Shown: positions 49,397 through 56,391 of the stretch, piece after piece
Layout: each line of letters begins with the position of its first letter
Numbering within the stretch: position 1 is the first letter of the stretch
Origin: Bacteroidaceae bacterium
GTDB taxonomy: Bacteria > Bacteroidota > Bacteroidia > Bacteroidales > Bacteroidaceae
Reading direction: 5' to 3'
Assembly (NCBI GenBank): GCA_017448965.1
Contig: JAFSKK010000044.1
Coordinates: forward strand, 1 to 64,000
DNA: 64,000 bases
Notes under the pieces: generated by a model
Database searches by the model: none
What the model was told of the DNA's origin: nothing
The model's input: the letters and a program-made list of their open reading frames with translations, nothing else
Program-made: the position numbers and the translations under genes

Positions 49397-49436
49397 CAAA
49401 GACATATTTGCTCCTTTGCCTCCCATTGAGGCTTGG

Positions 49437-49517
49437 AAAAACAATAATTACCCAAAATTGGTTCCAATAATAATTATTGGATAAAATTATTGTCAATTAT
49501 TGGTAATTATTGTTTTT
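49437..49517 (+). repeat. AT-rich nested palindrome between thyA and folA
   Basis: Outer arms 49437-49452 and 49502-49517 are exact 16-bp reverse complements. Inside lies a second perfect palindrome (49464-49480, CCAATAAT-A-ATTATTGG). The box AATTATTG or its complement CAATAATT occurs about six times in 81 bp. The outer stem ends in five T, so it may terminate thyA, but the nested structure is larger than needed for that. Confidence 0.75.
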
Positions 49518-49572
49518 CGAGACACCAACGGTGTTGAGAGCAAAACACATCAACTAACTTGTTCATTTACTA

Positions 49573-50067
49573 ATGATTTCAATTATTGTCGCTATAGCTG
49601 AGAACCGTGCCATTGGCTCGGAGAACAAACTGATTTATTGGTTGCCCAACGACCTCAAACGCTTCAAGGCATTGACCACGGGCAACACCATCATCATGGG
49701 CAGACGCACGTTCGAGAGTCTTCCCAAAGGTGCGTTGCCCAACCGACGGAACATCGTGCTGTCGCGAAAGGGTAAACCCGAAGACTTTCCCGGAGCCGAC
49801 CTCTACCCCACTCTCGACGAAGCCCTTGCCTCCTGCGAAGGGGATGTTTATATCATTGGCGGTGCATCCGTGTACAAAGAGGCACTCCCCCTTGCCGACC
49901 GCCTGTGCCTCACCTACATTTACGACACTCCCGAAAAGGCCGACACGTTCTTCCCTGAAATCAACAAGGATGAATGGACAGAGACATTCCGCGAAGAACA
50001 TGAGGTGGATGAGAAACATGCGTATCGCTATGCATTCGTGAATCTGGAGAGGAAGAAGAAAGGGTGA
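49573..50067 (+). CDS. folA: Dihydrofolate reductase
   Basis: Reduces dihydrofolate to tetrahydrofolate with NADPH. The protein has 164 residues, the normal length. The start ISIIVAIAENRAIG, the substrate-site WLPNDLKRFKALT (Asp27 equivalent present), the NADPH-binding IIMGRRTFESLP and VYIIGGASVY are all intact. The pairing with thyA is common and links the two folate reactions. The last 47 codons before the final KKKG are duplicated at 50712-50855, downstream of a toxin-antitoxin pair. Confidence 0.96.
   Translation: MISIIVAIAENRAIGSENKLIYWLPNDLKRFKALTTGNTIIMGRRTFESLPKGALPNRRNIVLSRKGKPEDFPGADLYPTLDEALASCEGDVYIIGGASVYKEALPLADRLCLTYIYDTPEKADTFFPEINKDEWTETFREEHEVDEKHAYRYAFVNLERKKKG
49921..50064 (+). 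repeat. Direct repeat: 3' part of folA (intact copy)
   Basis: This segment, the end of the functional folA, is repeated at 50712-50855. The encoded residues are identical up to NLERK; roughly twenty base differences occur, nearly all at third positions or in Leu/Arg codons. The second copy starts 791 bp after the first. Confidence 0.9.
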
Positions 50068-50093
50068 GAAACATCACAAAAGTATCGCAAATA

Positions 50094-50125
50094 TTTGGAT
50101 GAGTTGGGATTTTGATTTACCTTTG
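50094..50125 (+). promoter_or_regulatory. Promoter of the toxin-antitoxin pair
   Basis: TTTG at 50094-50097 and TACCTTTG at 50118-50125, 20 nt apart, match the consensus fully. A decayed version (TTTG 50908-50911, TACCTATG 50931-50938) stands at the same place after the second folA tail, in both cases preceded by the same GCAAATATTTG context. Confidence 0.8.
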
Positions 50126-50151
50126 CAAGTGAATACTAATTTGACAGCAAT

Positions 50152-50340
50152 ATGACCACCATTGTAGAAAGAACACCCAGAAGGATAACCGTTAGCATGA
50201 GTACGCGACGGTGGAACAGGATGTTGCAGCTTGAAGAGACATATAAACTGGCCCGCATCATCCGACGTAGCATGAAACAGGTGGAGACAGAGCCAAGCAT
50301 GACTCCAGATGAAGCCATAGCAGCATTACGCGCACTATGA
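50152..50340 (+). CDS. Putative antitoxin of a RelE-type module
   Basis: A 62-residue, basic protein (MTTIVERTPRRITVSMSTRR start) with an acidic-hydrophobic end (SMTPDEAIAALRAL). I do not recognise a named family. The position directly before a RelE-like toxin, the ATGA overlap (50337-50340) that couples translation, and the own promoter make the antitoxin role likely. The N-terminal half could be a short ribbon-helix-helix DNA-binding part and the C-terminal helix the toxin-binding part; both are inference. Confidence 0.7.
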   Translation: MTTIVERTPRRITVSMSTRRWNRMLQLEETYKLARIIRRSMKQVETEPSMTPDEAIAALRAL

Positions 50341-50663
50341 GAGTCAGAATCTCCGAAGACTTTCGTGTTGCCTATAAAAAGCTGAAAAAGCGTCACAAGT
50401 CACTTGAGGCAGATTTCGAGCGTCTTCTTTCATCCCTACTTCAAGAGCCCATTCAAGGTGTGGAGTTGGAAGGCGGTGCCCGGAAAGTTCGCCTAGCAGT
50501 ATCTTCTAAAGGTCGAGGCAAAAGCGGTGGTGCACGAGTCATTATTCGTGTACGTCTCATTGCCGATGAGCTACAACTCCTTTATATCTACGACAAGGCA
50601 GATTTCGAGAACGTCAGCGATGCATACCTTCGTGACATCATGAAGCGTATGGAACAATCTTGA
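50337..50663 (+). CDS. RelE/HigB-like ribonuclease toxin
   Basis: A 108-residue protein with the arrangement of RelE/ParE-superfamily toxins: an N-terminal helix pair (SEDFRVAYKKLKKRH), then the strand block RKVRLAVSSKGRGKSGGARV, and a final LLYIYDKADFENVSD. The block SSKGxGKSGGAR is typical of a widespread RelE/HigB-like group that cuts mRNA at the ribosome. Basic residues in that block are the likely RNA-contacting and catalytic ones. It overlaps the antitoxin by 4 nt. The duplicated folA end begins 48 nt after its stop. Confidence 0.82.
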   Translation: MRVRISEDFRVAYKKLKKRHKSLEADFERLLSSLLQEPIQGVELEGGARKVRLAVSSKGRGKSGGARVIIRVRLIADELQLLYIYDKADFENVSDAYLRDIMKRMEQS

Positions 50664-50711
50664 ACACTAAATTTAGGTACCATCAAAAATATACATATAT
50701 AAAAAGGAGCA

Positions 50712-50855
50712 TACGACACTCCCGAAAAAGCAGACACGTTCTTCCCAGAAATCAACAAAGACGAATGGACAGAGACGTTCAGAGAGGAACACGAAGTGGA
50801 TGAGAAGCATGCGTACAGATATGCATTTGTGAATTTGGAAAGGAAAAACAAATGA
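50712..50855 (+). pseudogene. Duplicated, detached 3' end of folA
   Basis: The 47 codons and stop from 50712 encode YDTPEKADTFFPEINKDE and onwards, identical to the end of folA until the last residues (ERKNK here, ERKKKG in folA). It has no start codon in frame and lacks the first two thirds of the enzyme, so it cannot make dihydrofolate reductase. The differences to the intact copy are almost all synonymous, which means both tails came from functional genes. This is the expected scar of a DNA segment that entered at folA and brought its own folA end. Confidence 0.9.
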
Positions 50856-51124
50856 AGAACTAAAAAAACAGAATCACCATGAGTCCATAATAAAAAAACA
50901 GCAAATATTTGCATGTATAAAAAAGACTCATACCTATGTGGTGTTAATTCCTGGTAGTCCCTGACCTCGTCAAACTATCAGGTGTTATTTTTTATTTATC
51001 CCTTCCTCCCATCTTTTCATTCGTTATTATTTTGTGGAGGAATAGCTAAGAGTTTTTTGATGGTATATTACGATGTGAGAGAGCATCTGACCCATGATAT
51101 CATCAAGAGGGTGAAGGACGAACG

Positions 51125-51140
51125 AACTAAAAATATAGTT
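51125..51140 (+). promoter_or_regulatory. Operator dyad 1 for the BlaI-like repressor
   Basis: The 16-bp dyad AACTA-N6-TAGTT lies just upstream of the -33 region of the blaI promoter. An identical pair of half-sites with the same spacing is at 51196-51211. Autoregulation by the encoded BlaI-like repressor is inferred. Confidence 0.65.
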
Positions 51141-51155
51141 AAATAGTGTTATTTC

Positions 51156-51187
51156 CTTGTTCATGTCATCTAAAAGGCATTACTTTG
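51156..51187 (+). promoter_or_regulatory. Probable promoter of the BlaI/M56 operon
   Basis: CTTG at 51156-51159 and TTACTTTG at 51180-51187, 20 nt apart, resemble the Bacteroidetes promoter with one deviation in the -7 box. It lies between the two operator dyads, as expected for a repressible promoter. Confidence 0.55.
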
Positions 51188-51195
51188 CAGCATTG

Positions 51196-51211
51196 AACTA
51201 AATAAATAGTT
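51196..51211 (+). promoter_or_regulatory. Operator dyad 2 for the BlaI-like repressor
   Basis: AACTA-N6-TAGTT, the same as at 51125-51140, covers the expected start of transcription and ends 4 nt before the blaI start codon. Binding here would block transcription directly. The two dyads start 71 bp apart. Confidence 0.65.
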
Positions 51212-51215
51212 AAAA

Positions 51216-51572
51216 ATGGAGAAACTAACAAGGAAAGAAGAAGAGGTGATGGAGATGATCTGGAAGATTGGTCCATGCGCTCCTAAGGATGTGGTTGCGG
51301 AGTATGAAGAGCCCAAACCACACATTAACACGATTGCCACGATGTTTCAGTCGTTGGAAAGAAAAGGTTACCTTGTTCATGAGGCGAAAGGACGTGGTTA
51401 CATCTATGCAGCCGCCATTGCTCAAAAGGACTACGGACGGAGTAAGTTCTCCAGTTTCGTGAACAGATACTTCGACAATTCTTACATGAATGTGGTGTCG
51501 GCATTGGTACAGGAAGAGAAAATCAGCAAGAGTGAACTCCTGGATTTCTTGAAGAAACTGGAAGAAAAATGA
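51216..51572 (+). CDS. BlaI/MecI-family transcriptional repressor
   Basis: A 118-residue winged-helix repressor. The N-terminal LTRKEEEVMEMIWKIGPCAPKDVV and the recognition-helix region HINTIATMFQSLERKGYLVH match BlaI/MecI, as does the C-terminal dimerisation helix pair (SALVQEEKISKSELLDFLKKL). In the classical system the repressor is cleaved when the M56-type sensor detects a signal, originally a beta-lactam. Its stop overlaps the sensor start (51569-51572). No beta-lactamase gene is nearby, so the signal and targets are different or distant. Confidence 0.93.
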   Translation: MEKLTRKEEEVMEMIWKIGPCAPKDVVAEYEEPKPHINTIATMFQSLERKGYLVHEAKGRGYIYAAAIAQKDYGRSKFSSFVNRYFDNSYMNVVSALVQEEKISKSELLDFLKKLEEK

Positions 51573-53905
51573 TGGCATCCCTATTCATTTATATTCTTAA
51601 ATGGGCTATCAGCCTCACGTTGCTGTATTCGCTCTATGGCCTGTTCCTACGGAAAGAGACGTTTCATCGTTTCAACCGCATGGTGCTGTTGGGCATCTTG
51701 CTGACCAGCATGGTGCTACCCTTCTGTACTATCCACACGAAACAGGAAACTATCGTATCGAAGGGGATGAGCGATATCGAGACAAACATTGCTGACGAAA
51801 TCGTGATCCAATATCAACCAGACGAAGATACAGAGGGAACAGAGCCAACCATTCCTATCTCTTTCATCAAAAAGACGCAGTCGGAAAGGGAGGTGCCTGC
51901 TCGCACCCTGCATCTGAGCCTTGTTCGTTGGCTGATCTTGCTCTACCTCTTGGGGGTGGTCTATTTCTGGGCACAATATCTGCTGTCCGTTGGCGCCATC
52001 TATCGGGTGGTCAGACAAAGCCAACGAATCGACAAAGACGGGCTTCCACAGGGCGTTCGTCTGAAGAGCCATCCTTCCATCCGTTCCCCTTTCTGTTGGT
52101 TTGGCATCATCATCATTCGAGAGGACGACCTTGAAGGCAAGTCCAACATAACGGATGCAATCATTGCCCACGAACTGGCACATGTGAAACTTCACCACTC
52201 ATGGGATAACCTGTTGGCTGATTTCACCACAAATATGCTTTGGTGTTTGCCGTTCACGTGGATGCTCAGGCGAGACCTGCGTGATGTGCATGAGTATCAA
52301 GCCGACCAAGCCGTCATGCAGGCAGGATTCGATGCCCACACTTACCAGTTGCTGCTGATAGACAGAGCAACCGAACCCACCCCCTACGAGATAGCCAACA
52401 ATTTTGAACAAAACCCCATTAAAAGACGACTCATTATGATGTTCCGGAACAAATCTGGCAGATACGCTTGGATGAAAGCGCTGTACTTGATTCCTCTTGG
52501 CGCCATCGCTTTGGTGGCATTCGCCAAGCCCGACATGATGGAAACGATTGAGACCAAGGTGTCTGACGAGATGGATTCGTTTTCTTTCACCTATACCACC
52601 TCAAAAGAGAATGCCAGCGCCCAATCCTTTGATGAAAACGACTGGACACAAGACCCACGTGGCATCTATCGATTGACCAAAATCACAGGTCGTAACGGCA
52701 TTGAGATGGATGCACCCTTCGACCAGTACAAGATTTGTGAAGAGGACGCCACTTTCTCCTTTTTTGTCAATGGCAGCAATCCCAAAGATGTTCAATTCCG
52801 CCTGAACATCAACGACGCCAACGTCTTCGACTACACAGGGAGAGTTCCGCAAGAAGAGGATGGGCACGGGGCACAGATATACGATAGTAACGGCAAGGGG
52901 TTCAAACTCAGATGGTGGAGCGTATATAAAGACCACGCCCTATTCCCCGATCATGGATGGGTGGTGGAGCAGTACGAACGCGACAAATTCTCCAAATCAG
53001 CCCAGGAAATTCTGAGTATGCTGAGAGACACGAAGGACTTCGATAGCGATGACCCCTATTCTGGCATTTGGTGGATGAGCGAAAAGAACGAAGCTGAGTT
53101 GCAGGCATGGAAGGACGGAAAAGGAGCTTTTGATTCACCGCACATCATGAATGGAATGGTGGTGCGAGGTCATCGAGTGCTGAGGTTCAGCTTTGTGAAT
53201 GACATCAATATTGCGAGACGTGGCTATACTGGCTCTGTGCAAGACTGTTCCCACGAGGGGAAAGAAAAAATCCGCATCGGCAGTCGCATCTACGAACCCG
53301 AATGGATAGGCGACAACTACTTTTATTATCAAACAGAAAAAGGAAAATTCCAATTTTGGACACGCCAAACCTTAGGCAAGGAATTCCTCTATGAGAATTT
53401 CCTCTCCATACTTCATTATGCTCAACACCAGCCACATCCCCTTGCCACCAGCAAGTTTGACACGAAGCAAACCCATGCGGACATCCCTGTGTCCAGCAGC
53501 GACAGCATCTATTTAGCCCCCAATGTCAGCATCGCCCAATTTGAGGGAGGGAACAATGTCCTCATGCACTGGCTGCAAACGCATCTGCACTACCCTGACC
53601 CCATCTACAGGAAATATGGGTTTGAAGGTCGTTTGATGGTCACTTTCGTGGTGGAGAAAGATGGAAGCCTGCAACATTTCTCTGTGATTCGCAACGACAT
53701 CAACACCAAAGAAACTGCCGCCTCTCTCCATCTGACAGAGGAGGAATACGAAAGCTTTATCTTCAAGAGAAAAGCAGCCTTCGAGAATGTCGTCATCAAC
53801 CTTCTCCAATCTATGCCTCGCTGGCAACCAGCCATCCATGAAACGAATGGCAAGAAAGAATATGTACGTATGAAATATACCCTCCCCTTCACTTTCAAAC
53901 TTTAA
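51569..53905 (+). CDS. BlaR1-like M56 metallopeptidase with TonB C-terminal domain
   Basis: A 778-residue membrane sensor-protease. The N-terminal third has four membrane segments (about 5-25, 37-53, 120-142 and 305-325) around the M56 zinc-peptidase core, with HELAH at 201-205 (His201, Glu202, His205) and a later Glu in EYQADQAV. The middle 330-640 is an extracytoplasmic beta-rich region of unknown type, in place of the penicillin-binding domain of BlaR1. The last about 110 residues are a TonB C-terminal fold (YPDPIYRKYGFEGRLMVTFV, then PRWQPAI). Such M56-TonB fusions are frequent in Bacteroidetes. It overlaps blaI by four bases. Confidence 0.9.
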   Translation: MMASLFIYILKWAISLTLLYSLYGLFLRKETFHRFNRMVLLGILLTSMVLPFCTIHTKQETIVSKGMSDIETNIADEIVIQYQPDEDTEGTEPTIPISFIKKTQSEREVPARTLHLSLVRWLILLYLLGVVYFWAQYLLSVGAIYRVVRQSQRIDKDGLPQGVRLKSHPSIRSPFCWFGIIIIREDDLEGKSNITDAIIAHELAHVKLHHSWDNLLADFTTNMLWCLPFTWMLRRDLRDVHEYQADQAVMQAGFDAHTYQLLLIDRATEPTPYEIANNFEQNPIKRRLIMMFRNKSGRYAWMKALYLIPLGAIALVAFAKPDMMETIETKVSDEMDSFSFTYTTSKENASAQSFDENDWTQDPRGIYRLTKITGRNGIEMDAPFDQYKICEEDATFSFFVNGSNPKDVQFRLNINDANVFDYTGRVPQEEDGHGAQIYDSNGKGFKLRWWSVYKDHALFPDHGWVVEQYERDKFSKSAQEILSMLRDTKDFDSDDPYSGIWWMSEKNEAELQAWKDGKGAFDSPHIMNGMVVRGHRVLRFSFVNDINIARRGYTGSVQDCSHEGKEKIRIGSRIYEPEWIGDNYFYYQTEKGKFQFWTRQTLGKEFLYENFLSILHYAQHQPHPLATSKFDTKQTHADIPVSSSDSIYLAPNVSIAQFEGGNNVLMHWLQTHLHYPDPIYRKYGFEGRLMVTFVVEKDGSLQHFSVIRNDINTKETAASLHLTEEEYESFIFKRKAAFENVVINLLQSMPRWQPAIHETNGKKEYVRMKYTLPFTFKL

Positions 53906-53925
53906 ACTATCAACTGTCAACTATG
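53891..53925 (+). repeat. Heptanucleotide array joining two genes
   Basis: Five 7-nt units (ACTTTCA, AACTTTA, AACTATC, AACTGTC, AACTATG) run from the last codons of the M56 gene into the start codon of the next gene: the ATG at 53923 is the end of the last unit. The units belong to the same AACTNTN family as at 836-863 and 56122-56149. Confidence 0.75.
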
Positions 53926-54738
53926 AATAAAATCCTCTTAATCATCCTCACATGGATAACACTTATTTCGACTGCCTCTGCCACAGGGCAAGAAGGAGAA
54001 CACATCGTTTGGAAAGGGCAAGAGTACCAGATGCTGACCTGTCCCCTTTACGACTGCCACGAGTTTGATAGCTTGGGCAGAAAATTGGAAAAGGAATGGT
54101 CAATGACATCTCTTTGGCGTGGCTATCAGGGGCATTGGTGCATCGAAAATGATATGCTCTATCTCGACTATATCGTGCCTAAAAGTGGGGAAAATCTCTA
54201 CGCCAAGGACATTCCAGAACTCCGCAAATACTGCAAGAATGGACGTGTGGCTGCTACTTGGTTCAGCGACACCCTGCGAGTCGTTTCAGGCAGCACAGTC
54301 TTCTATGAACACATGGGCTTCAACCGCTACTATGAGCATGAGGACTTCATTGCTGTGAAACAAGGCAAGGTTGTGTCTGTCAAACGAGTAGAAAACAAGT
54401 TGATTATCAAGGGGAAGGAGAACGACATGGATGCACAGAGGAAATTCAGTCAGTTCCTCGCTGATCTCGGCAAACAACTGCACAAACGCTATCCAGAAGA
54501 GAGCGGTCGCATCCTTGCCAACGTAAGATATTGCAACTTCGGTCTTATGATGATGCCTTCCGACGTGGAAGTGACCTTCCTCATCGGTCAAGATATCCAA
54601 CACAACAACAAAATGATGGAAAGGGAAATTAAAGAGAAACTCGCTAATTATATTCTCGCCAACAAAATTCTCCCTCTTTACTACCTCAACGGGAAGATAA
54701 AATCGCCCAAATGGCTACTCCCCATCCGATTGGAATAA
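53923..54738 (+). CDS. Uncharacterised exported protein of the BlaI/M56 operon
   Basis: A 271-residue protein with a signal peptide (ILLIILTWITLISTASA, cut near residue 21). I recognise no family. The first half has two cysteines (LTCPLYDCHEF) and several Trp/Tyr. The last 120 residues, with ANVRYCNFGLMMMPSDVEVT and a closing PKWLLPIRLE, faintly recall the end of TonB-like domains in the preceding M56 protein. It starts 17 nt after the M56 gene through a heptad array and is probably the third gene of that operon, so it may be the sensed or regulated partner. Confidence 0.7.
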   Translation: MNKILLIILTWITLISTASATGQEGEHIVWKGQEYQMLTCPLYDCHEFDSLGRKLEKEWSMTSLWRGYQGHWCIENDMLYLDYIVPKSGENLYAKDIPELRKYCKNGRVAATWFSDTLRVVSGSTVFYEHMGFNRYYEHEDFIAVKQGKVVSVKRVENKLIIKGKENDMDAQRKFSQFLADLGKQLHKRYPEESGRILANVRYCNFGLMMMPSDVEVTFLIGQDIQHNNKMMEREIKEKLANYILANKILPLYYLNGKIKSPKWLLPIRLE

Positions 54739-54908
54739 AAAAACTAACAAATAACCAGAATATGAAGATAAAAATAAACAATGATGAACAAGAAAACAAT
54801 AACGGAAAACCATCAGTAAACTAAAACAAAATAAAGAAGACTTTCATGAAATGACTGATGATTAGTGAAATATTCGTTCTTCATTCTTTCCGTAATCAAC
54901 AAGTTTCG

Positions 54909-54916
54909 TATCTTTG
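54909..54916 (+). promoter_or_regulatory. -7 promoter element TATCTTTG upstream of rsmF
   Basis: TATCTTTG lies 77 nt upstream of the methyltransferase start; the -33 position has only TTTC. The predicted transcript would begin near 54923 and contain the short frame at 54936-55010 first. Confidence 0.65.
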
Positions 54917-54935
54917 CAGTATAAACCAAGAAAGC

Positions 54936-55010
54936 ATGAGCAAGGAAGATTGTCTGCATCACTGTTTTTTCTGTCTGCAAACAAAAGGACACAATGACAT
55001 TACCCATTGA
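54936..55010 (+). CDS. Possible 24-codon leader peptide overlapping the rsmF start
   Basis: The first ATG of the predicted rsmF transcript opens a 24-residue frame (MSKEDCLHHCFFCLQTKGHN and four more residues) that ends 17 nt inside rsmF in another reading frame. The cysteine- and histidine-rich CLHHCFFC is unusual for chance sequence. A translated leader could couple to or limit rsmF translation. There is no further evidence that it is made. Confidence 0.25.
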   Translation: MSKEDCLHHCFFCLQTKGHNDITH

Positions 55011-56391
55011 CTTTCAAAATATGATGATGAGTAACCTCGGCAAGGAGGAATATGAAAGACTTGCCGAGGCTTTATCTTTGCCTGCACCCACAAGCATACG
55101 CATCAATAAAAAGAAGACCCTCTCCCCTGCCCTCCCCCATAATGGGGAGGGAGAAGTCCCTTGGTGCCCTGATGGCTTCTACCTTTCAGAGCGTCCTTCG
55201 TTCACGTTTGATCCTCTGTTTCATGCGGGCTGCTATTATGTGCAGGAGGCATCATCGATGTTTTTGTCGCATATACTGCAAGGATATGTGAAGGAGCCAG
55301 TGGTGGCATTGGACTTGTGTGCTGCACCAGGAGGGAAATCCACGCTGGCATTGTCAGAACTGCCTGAAGGATCGTTGCTGATAGCCAATGAGGTGGTGAG
55401 ACAACGGGCAAACATCTTGGCAGAAAACATCATTAAATGGGGCAATCCCAACTGCATCGTCACGAACAACTATGCAGAGGACTTTCAGGCGTTCGGCAAC
55501 ACGTTCGACCTCATCATCTGCGATGCACCCTGTTCGGGAGAAGGAATGTTCCGTAAAGACCCGAACAGCATCGGGGAATGGAGCCTTGCGAACGTGGATG
55601 TATGTTGGAGGCGACAACGAGACATCGTGAGAGACATCTGGCACACGCTGAAGGAGGGAGGACTGTTCATCTACAGCACCTGCACCTACAATCCCTTGGA
55701 AGACGAGGAGAACGTGGAATGGATTGCCAAGACATTGGGGGCTGAAGTGCTGTCGTGCCGTCCCAACCCTGAATGGGAATTGACAGAGAAGAACACGCAT
55801 TTCTATCCGCATCGGACGAAAGGCGAAGGCTTCTTCATCAGCGTGATGAGAAAGACATCGGAAGCGGAAAGCAGGAAAAAAGGAAAGGAAAGCAAGGCGG
55901 GAAAGTCTGCGAACAAAGTGCCTGCAGAACTGAAGGGTTGGTTGTTGGGAAGCCAAGATTTCACCTTCTTAGAGGGAAAAGATAGTTTCTATGCCTTCCC
56001 TACAACTCATCTCGATACTCTTAGACAAGCCCAAAGTACACTGAGAGTGATTCATGCAGGCATCGAACTTGCAACCAGCCCACGCACTGGGCGAATTTCT
56101 CCAGCAAAGTCCTCTTCTCTCAACTCTAAACCCTCAACTCTAAACTCGCTTCGCCCCTGCCACAGCCTCGCCTTGAGCAACAATCTGAACCAAGAGGCTT
56201 TCCCGATGGTAGAAGTAGATGAGCACCAAGCCATTGCCTATCTGCGGACAGAAGCCCTGCAACTGCCAGCCGACACTCCACGCGGCTATGTGCTCATCAC
56301 CTATCAAGGACATCCATTAGGCTTTGCCAAGAACATCGGCAACCGCGCCAACAACCTCTACCCTACGGAGTGGAGAATCAGGAAGAATTGA
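54994..56391 (+). CDS. rsmF: RsmF/RsmB-type rRNA (cytosine-C5) methyltransferase
   Basis: A 465-residue SAM-dependent enzyme that methylates a cytosine of 16S rRNA. The SAM site is LDLCAAPGGKSTLAL. The two catalytic cysteines are Cys180 in DAPCSGEGMFRKD and Cys230 in STCTYNPLEDEENVEW. The C-terminal domain (YVLITYQGHPLGFAKNIGNR) is the RNA-binding end typical of the RsmF group. Two foreign-looking stretches interrupt it. TLSPALPHNGEGE near residues 43-55 is encoded by a palindromic element (55116-55153). SSLNSKPSTLNSL near 376-388 is encoded by a heptad array (56122-56149). Both lie outside conserved motifs and keep the frame. Confidence 0.9.
   Translation: MTLPIDFQNMMMSNLGKEEYERLAEALSLPAPTSIRINKKKTLSPALPHNGEGEVPWCPDGFYLSERPSFTFDPLFHAGCYYVQEASSMFLSHILQGYVKEPVVALDLCAAPGGKSTLALSELPEGSLLIANEVVRQRANILAENIIKWGNPNCIVTNNYAEDFQAFGNTFDLIICDAPCSGEGMFRKDPNSIGEWSLANVDVCWRRQRDIVRDIWHTLKEGGLFIYSTCTYNPLEDEENVEWIAKTLGAEVLSCRPNPEWELTEKNTHFYPHRTKGEGFFISVMRKTSEAESRKKGKESKAGKSANKVPAELKGWLLGSQDFTFLEGKDSFYAFPTTHLDTLRQAQSTLRVIHAGIELATSPRTGRISPAKSSSLNSKPSTLNSLRPCHSLALSNNLNQEAFPMVEVDEHQAIAYLRTEALQLPADTPRGYVLITYQGHPLGFAKNIGNRANNLYPTEWRIRKN
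55116..55153 (+). repeat. 38-bp palindromic element inside rsmF
   Basis: It matches the copy at 61050-61087 at 35 of 38 positions. The core is the palindrome CCCTCCCCCATAATGGGGAGGG-type (about 22 bp, half-sites CCCTCCCC and GGGGAGGG). It is read in frame as TLSPALPHNGEGE in the N-terminal part of the methyltransferase. Confidence 0.9.
56122..56149 (+). repeat. Heptanucleotide array inside rsmF
   Basis: Four 7-nt units (AACTCTA, AACCCTC, AACTCTA, AACTCGC) lie in the linker before the C-terminal domain. Since seven is not a multiple of three, a change by one or two units would shift the frame and cut off that domain. Confidence 0.75.

Follow-up and report, generated by a model that had tools for sequence, protein, structure and literature searches.

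Integrative elements such as e14 in icd and SCC in rlmH restore the 3' end of the gene in which they sit and displace the old end. How chromosomal toxin-antitoxin (TA) pairs without a transposase or integrase move is, to our knowledge, not settled. For the Vibrio T6SS and Rhs, passages of one paper (PMC5361080) propose that effector 3' ends together with immunity genes are displaced by homology-facilitated illegitimate recombination, a process of low efficiency in E. coli conjugation according to the title of PMC3240628. For restriction-modification systems an insertion with long target duplication is proposed (Nobusato 2000 and Furuta 2010, as cited in parts of PMC3031569 and PMC3874152), and in Microcystis a ParDE-like TA downstream of MaOC1 lies between two identical 152-bp direct repeats (PMC7935541, relevant section).

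Here we describe a TA pair enclosed by two copies of the folA 3' end, one of which is probably a displaced gene end from recombination between related strains or species. It was found in a 64,000-nt stretch of DNA from a Bacteroidaceae bacterium (assembly GCA_017448965.1, contig JAFSKK010000044.1, positions 1 to 64,000), which we call the window. Unlike e14 in icd and SCC in rlmH, the insert is far smaller, an integrase was not found, and there is no second case at folA. As in the cited passages on Vibrio T6SS and Rhs, the module would be anchored by homology on one side and the old end would be left as a downstream orphan, but the anchor is here a housekeeping folA that must keep working and the cargo is a RelE/HigB-type TA. 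Restriction-modification insertions, in the parts cited, are likewise selfish two-gene units with direct repeats (theirs being about 100 bp of target), whereas the repeats here differ silently and would be two alleles of a gene end. The Microcystis TA is also a module between long direct repeats beside a gene end; in that section, however, there is no difference between the two repeats, the first of which starts 14 bp past the stop codon.

The folA gene, its two tails and the TA cassette

The gene order is thyA, folA, promoter, TA pair, orphan tail, BlaI/BlaR-like pair, one ORF and rsmF. The features are as follows.

49573..50067, + strand: folA (DHFR), intact ORF of 164 aa (PF00186, E 6.8e-53), whose 3' part is tail T1
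49921..50061, + strand: tail T1, codons 117-163 of the intact folA, direct repeat D1
50087..50126, + strand: putative TA promoter region, GCAAATATTTGGATG then TACCTTTG box
50152..50340, + strand: antitoxin, 62 aa, weakly RelB-like (PF18506, E 0.13, under cut-off)
50337..50663, + strand: toxin, 108 aa, RelE/HigB-2-like (PF06296, PDB HigB-2 matches)
50664..50711, + strand: AT-rich stretch of 48 nt between the toxin and folA codon 117
50712..50855, + strand: orphan tail T2 with its own stop codon and no gene head before it, direct repeat (repeat unit 50712-50852)
50901..50915, + strand: second GCAAATATTTGNATG, then TACCTATG box, the only other copy in the assembly
51216-51572, + strand: BlaI-like repressor (PF03965)
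51569-53905, + strand: BlaR1/M56-like protein (PF05569)
53923..54738, + strand: 271-aa ORF, no Pfam match over cut-off
54994..56391, + strand: rsmF, which usually follows folA in the genus (PF01189, PF17125, PF13636)

The last 47 codons of folA are present twice, as direct copies of 141 nt at 49921-50061 and 50712-50852 with a spacing of 791. T1 and T2 share 86% of their bases (121 of 141), including the first 17 nt of the repeat, TACGACACTCCCGAAAA. The 20 base differences fall in 18 codons, of which 17 are synonymous; the sole amino-acid change is K162 to N, and codon positions 1, 2 and 3 carry 3, 0 and 17 differences respectively. For a null expectation, the T1/T2 substitutions were placed at random in 20000 runs on T1 and 20000 on T2. 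It turned out that 13.1 (T1) and 13.5 (T2) amino-acid changes are expected on average against 1 observed, and that none of the 40000 simulations (0 of 20000 on each tail) gave one change or fewer.

In a comparison of 45 codons, the differences between T1 and T2 amount to 19 nt and 17 synonymous codons, with 0 amino-acid changes. Elsewhere in the genus the corresponding counts for the tail are 18, 14 and 2 (G019 and G021), 20, 15 and 2 (T1 and G019), and 7, 3 and 2 for the close pair G022 and G032; generally, tails of different species in the genus show differences similar to, or larger than, those between T1 and T2. The two source lineages would thus be about species-level apart. Since the differences are silent, both tails would have diverged while each ended a working folA, which speaks for two folA alleles whose coding ends, T1 and T2, were joined at one locus by recombination. 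T2 shows neither a stop nor a frameshift, and one replacement at the most, so it would have been headless for a short time only. A decaying tandem duplication of the folA end was rejected, because the T1/T2 differences are silent.

The toxin ORF and the antitoxin ORF overlap by 4 nt. The toxin matches the RelE family PF06296 with E 4.4e-6 (27.4 bits, cut-off 27), and a profile of five such toxins matches the HigB-2 chains 5ja9 and 5ja8 in PDB with E about 1e-7. The closest named records with this toxin are MAGs from rumen and gut that bear the labels Bacteroidales, Bacteroidaceae, Prevotellaceae or Prevotella. An antitoxin-like ORF is also located upstream of the toxin in G032, G026, G030 and G010. 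With a RelE-superfamily toxin and a small adjoining antitoxin ORF, the locus has the gene make-up of the type II RelE/HigB systems, and the RelB/RelE-like pair is presumably a translation-inhibiting system of the ordinary type II kind.

The region 50087..50126 is what we take to be the promoter from the Bacteroidota consensus. Within the 3.03-Mb assembly the motif GCAAATATTTGNATG exists in two copies, both behind a folA tail (50087 and 50901), and the repeat unit reaches beyond the folA stop codon up to this motif. The first copy runs into the TA promoter, and similarity to the TA of G032 begins at about 50090; the left join of the cassette with folA-side DNA may therefore lie inside a short AT-rich similarity near 50087-50126. 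On the other side, no long homology or long shared word is found at the join 50711/50712, and the 48-nt stretch 50664..50711 has no relative among the loci compared. The initial annotation had reported a 47-codon folA end occurring twice, 791 bp apart, with about twenty mostly synonymous differences, a RelE-like toxin with its antitoxin between the copies, and the promoter context again after the second tail. The counts given above, the intact ORF pair with PF06296 just over the cut-off and the restriction of GCAAATATTTGNATG to its two sites in the assembly agree with all of this.

As rsmF, the usual neighbour of folA, starts at 54994, the stretch from folA to rsmF represents an insert of about 4.9 kb. 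No integrase or recombinase was found among the scanned ORFs from 50062 to 54994. The BlaI/BlaR-like pair and the third ORF occur elsewhere in G019, G028, G030, G032, G036 and G040, and none of them was seen in the folA-downstream stretches covered in 40 relatives; an ORF like the 271-aa one adjoins BlaR in several relatives. Besides, there is an AT-rich inverted repeat upstream of folA (window 49423-49531), and the part from 49500 to about 49550 has ten further matches (84-98% identity) in the assembly, forming a dispersed repeat family.

The folA region in related genomes and the origin of the tails

Of 45 genus genomes, 41 including the window's have a FolA match and the other 4 have none. 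All 40 other folA-bearing genomes have a single folA tail, and the second, tail-only match exists in the window's genome alone (1 of 41). Among 399 genomes of the family, 366 have a tail match. At least three besides the window's (G249, G273 and G359, among the matches listed) contain two tail matches, and each of these also has two matches to the whole FolA profile among those listed.

In most relatives (29 of 40) rsmF lies at most 70 nt from folA, mostly overlapping the folA stop, while 7 of 40 carry an insert of 285-2433 nt between the two genes, and in 4 of 40 rsmF is absent from the 3.3-4.0 kb examined 3' of folA (in one of these four, G032, it lies some 15 kb farther). The place just 3' of folA is insertion-prone, with other DNA or no near rsmF in 11 of 40 relatives. 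Among the cargoes, G041 has an ORF6N protein, G030 a RhuM-Fic protein, and three genomes an AsnC/Lrp-like gene, the last assignment coming from a scan of one of the three. Behind rsmF, for comparison, the distance to the following gene has grown to about 825 nt in four genomes, all with one common ORF cluster that is Nudix-like by eye. In two relatives folA has no stop and continues in frame into the neighbouring protein, namely ORF6N in L047 of G041 (462 aa in total) and RhuM-Fic in L052 of G030 (496 aa in total).

A displaced folA tail at this insertion-prone place occurs in the window only. Relatives with other inserts beside folA have a single tail each and no second gene end. The TA is absent from the folA-downstream stretches covered in the 40 other folA-bearing genus genomes, and no donor with a single-tail folA followed by the TA was found among them. 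Close TA copies in G032 and G026, for which both flanks are covered, are located elsewhere and have no flanking gene-tail repeat; for the copies in G030 and G010 the downstream side ends at a contig end.

We compared the window with G010, the nearest relative found at this locus. The identity is 91% over 33.5-37.7 kb and 94% over 37.7-49.4 kb, and individual 200-nt blocks between 46.5 and 48.88 kb have 97-100%. Within thyA, at about 48.88 kb, it falls from 99% to 86%, with 87% followed by 76% in folA and 80% in rsmF. Matching stretches up to about 62.57 kb have 80-87% identity (86-87% past rsmF), after which it returns to 95%. The tract of lowered identity, from about 48.88 to about 62.57 kb, is therefore about 13.7 kb long and gives the region a mosaic ancestry. 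From these switches, the tract was probably replaced from a diverged lineage in one of the two genomes, which supports allele import in general and is silent on which tail arrived.

Similarity to 26 relatives did not decide which tail is native, with mean identities of 0.773 for T1 and 0.775 for T2, nor did codon usage (mean log relative codon frequency -0.859 for T1 and -0.892 for T2). The similarity profile of the folA head over the 26 relatives correlates with that of T1 at Pearson 0.66 and with that of T2 at 0.60; it leans weakly towards T1 and against T1 as the foreign tail. The best relatives reach at most 84% identity over 141 nt versus 86% between T1 and T2, and over the first 132 nt the values are 85.6% and 86.4%. 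T1 and T2 are thus barely closer to each other than to their best relatives and point to no donor.

A phage or plasmid carrier was also considered and rejected on the viral contigs and plasmid records. No toxin relative was found in 20 pattern stretches of viral_contigs, where the FolA search gave 2 loci with a DHFR 36% identical and no close FolA relative, and the 18 plasmid records with toxin relatives all have <60% identity.

The initial annotation had explained the locus by a segment from a related strain that recombined into folA with its own gene end. The two alleles, the single tail in all 40 other folA-bearing genus genomes (the one-tail empty sites that it had asked for), the recombinant tract and the other inserts beside folA in several relatives favour this account. 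Its choice of the upstream tail T1 as the foreign one finds no support, as the tails are about equidistant from other species and the head profile is slightly nearer to T1. Other cassettes between two tails, which it had proposed to look for, were not seen, the relatives with other folA inserts having one tail. The idea that the TA module itself uses gene ends as its landing site finds no support in the close copies in G032 and G026.

Direct repeats around other TA loci

At related TA loci we counted direct repeats with a length of 40 nt or more that had a copy within 700 nt on either side. The first set contained 110 loci, 93 with enough flank, with twins and the window's own locus included. 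Such repeats were present at 22 of 93 loci versus 172 of 10805 random placements; against ORF-bounded controls, with 25 of 205 (p 0.016), the contrast is much weaker. A tight geometry, in which the upstream copy lies before the promoter and the downstream copy just behind the toxin, was defined after the first set had been seen and held for 16 of its 93 loci versus 4 of 205 controls. A second set began with 45 loci, of which 2 were dropped as duplicates and 42 had sufficient flank; tight repeats occurred at 4 of 42 versus 0 of 33 (p 0.13; p 0.03 against the earlier control).

Collapsing twins reduced 135 loci to 123, or 122 without the window's. Any repeat was found at 24 of the 122 versus 22 of 196 controls (p 0.049), and the tight geometry at 18 versus 2 of 196 (p 1e-6), with the criterion set after most of these loci had been seen; for the new loci alone the tight count is 4 of 41 versus 0 of 33 (p 0.12). 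Several flanking repeats are promoter-near sequence and not gene ends. Gene-end repeats at TA loci involve a tail in 8 of 76 and a head in 4 of 76 cases, and at non-TA ORFs of the same loci a tail in 2 of 145 and a head in 3 of 157. These counts are no proof of a 3'-end preference, since 2 of the 8 are L200 counted from both sides and one is its near twin L201. A search with PF05016 in 91 genomes gave 19 loci, which stand outside the repeat counts.

The clearer gene-end cases are folA in the window, trpB in L213 and a glycosyltransferase-like gene in L200 and L201. The best parallel is L213:3637-4375 from Sulfurospirillum sp. SCADC, in which a TA pair is enclosed by two trpB ends. Directly after the toxin, the last 19 trpB codons and the stop recur with 75% identity, and since 9 of 19 amino acids differ, this orphan gives the impression of being older and decayed. 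A TrpB match exists in 23 of 24 Sulfurospirillum genomes, with no second trpB tail up to 1.5 kb downstream in the 22 others; in the empty-site relative G424, trpB is followed after 90 nt by the same next gene as in L213. In L200:1358-2297 and L201:1477-2416, a reversed TA pair lies between two copies (113 nt, 99% identical) of the end of a gene that is glycosyltransferase-like by eye. Besides, repeats over a small ORF lie on both sides of a TA pair in L328 (435 nt, 91%) and L233 (468 nt, 81%).

How the arrangement may have arisen

The best explanation, to which we give a probability of about 60%, is either an import in which one end joined illegitimately or a cassette with target duplication that recombination reassorted. 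Allelic recombination at folA would have brought in or reassorted the TA cassette, and the present structure would be its scar. The incoming DNA would carry the folA 3' end of another species-level lineage with the promoter and the TA pair behind it. One side, which we infer to be the homologous one, would have paired with the resident folA, and the other, at codon 117, would have been linked with little homology, if any, as in homology-facilitated illegitimate recombination. Because one end replaces the other, folA would have been kept intact, and the spare end would remain as a headless remnant downstream. By an equivalent route, the cassette would have acquired a long target duplication when it arose in another strain, and ordinary homologous recombination through its duplicated flanks would have spread it afterwards. 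The order of events, the one-sided join and the native tail are what we infer from the present arrangement.

A rather unlikely alternative places the insertion with long target duplication in the window's own lineage, followed by replacement of the folA allele through ordinary recombination. The 141-nt repeat with its motif, present as one copy at 40 of 40 other folA-bearing loci, fits such a duplication, as do the 18 of 122 related TA loci with tight geometry (window's excluded; 2 of 196 ORF controls), the 113-nt, 99% repeat in L200/L201 and the restriction-modification precedents (parts of PMC3874152 and PMC3031569). Repeats copied from one target, however, would be identical at birth, and those of folA show 14% silent divergence, so that a second event, the later allele exchange, is needed to bring in silent differences at the species level. 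Moreover, the tight criterion was post hoc, with the new loci alone giving p 0.12, and several of the repeats are promoter-near.

It is quite improbable that a gene-end-restoring site-specific element entered here, with an attP carrying the folA 3' end, a core near codon 117 and T1 as element DNA. The tail restored with silent changes, the varied cargo at the folA 3' place and the 17 identical bases at the start of both copies are what such an element would give, but an identical run of this length is unremarkable at 14% divergence, the insert ORFs include no integrase, relatives with other folA inserts have a single tail, and neither a toxin relative nor a close FolA relative was found in the viral contigs. 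Silent differences would be expected too if two full folA paralogues had long diverged under selection and the second had lost its head when the TA arrived; with two full folA matches in no genus genome (one in each of 40 others, none in 4), this is very improbable. An assembly chimera of two populations might be suspected in 74 contigs with 85.6% completeness, but it is hardly credible, as an assembler would meet no long shared word at the join 50711/50712 that could mislead it and the separate trpB case has the same anatomy.

No report of TA cassettes between allelic gene ends was found among the matches listed from the open-licence literature. As the flanking gene ends would be two alleles, the event at folA can be read as recombination between lineages, and the headless tail is a searchable signature that recurs at trpB of one Sulfurospirillum genome, with tight direct repeats around some related TA loci too. 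On a tentative and rather doubtful wider reading, small TA cassettes may spread by carrying their own copy of the neighbour's end, which would serve as both repair patch and homology arm, allow integrase-free moves between species by ordinary recombination and leave headless tails as fossils.
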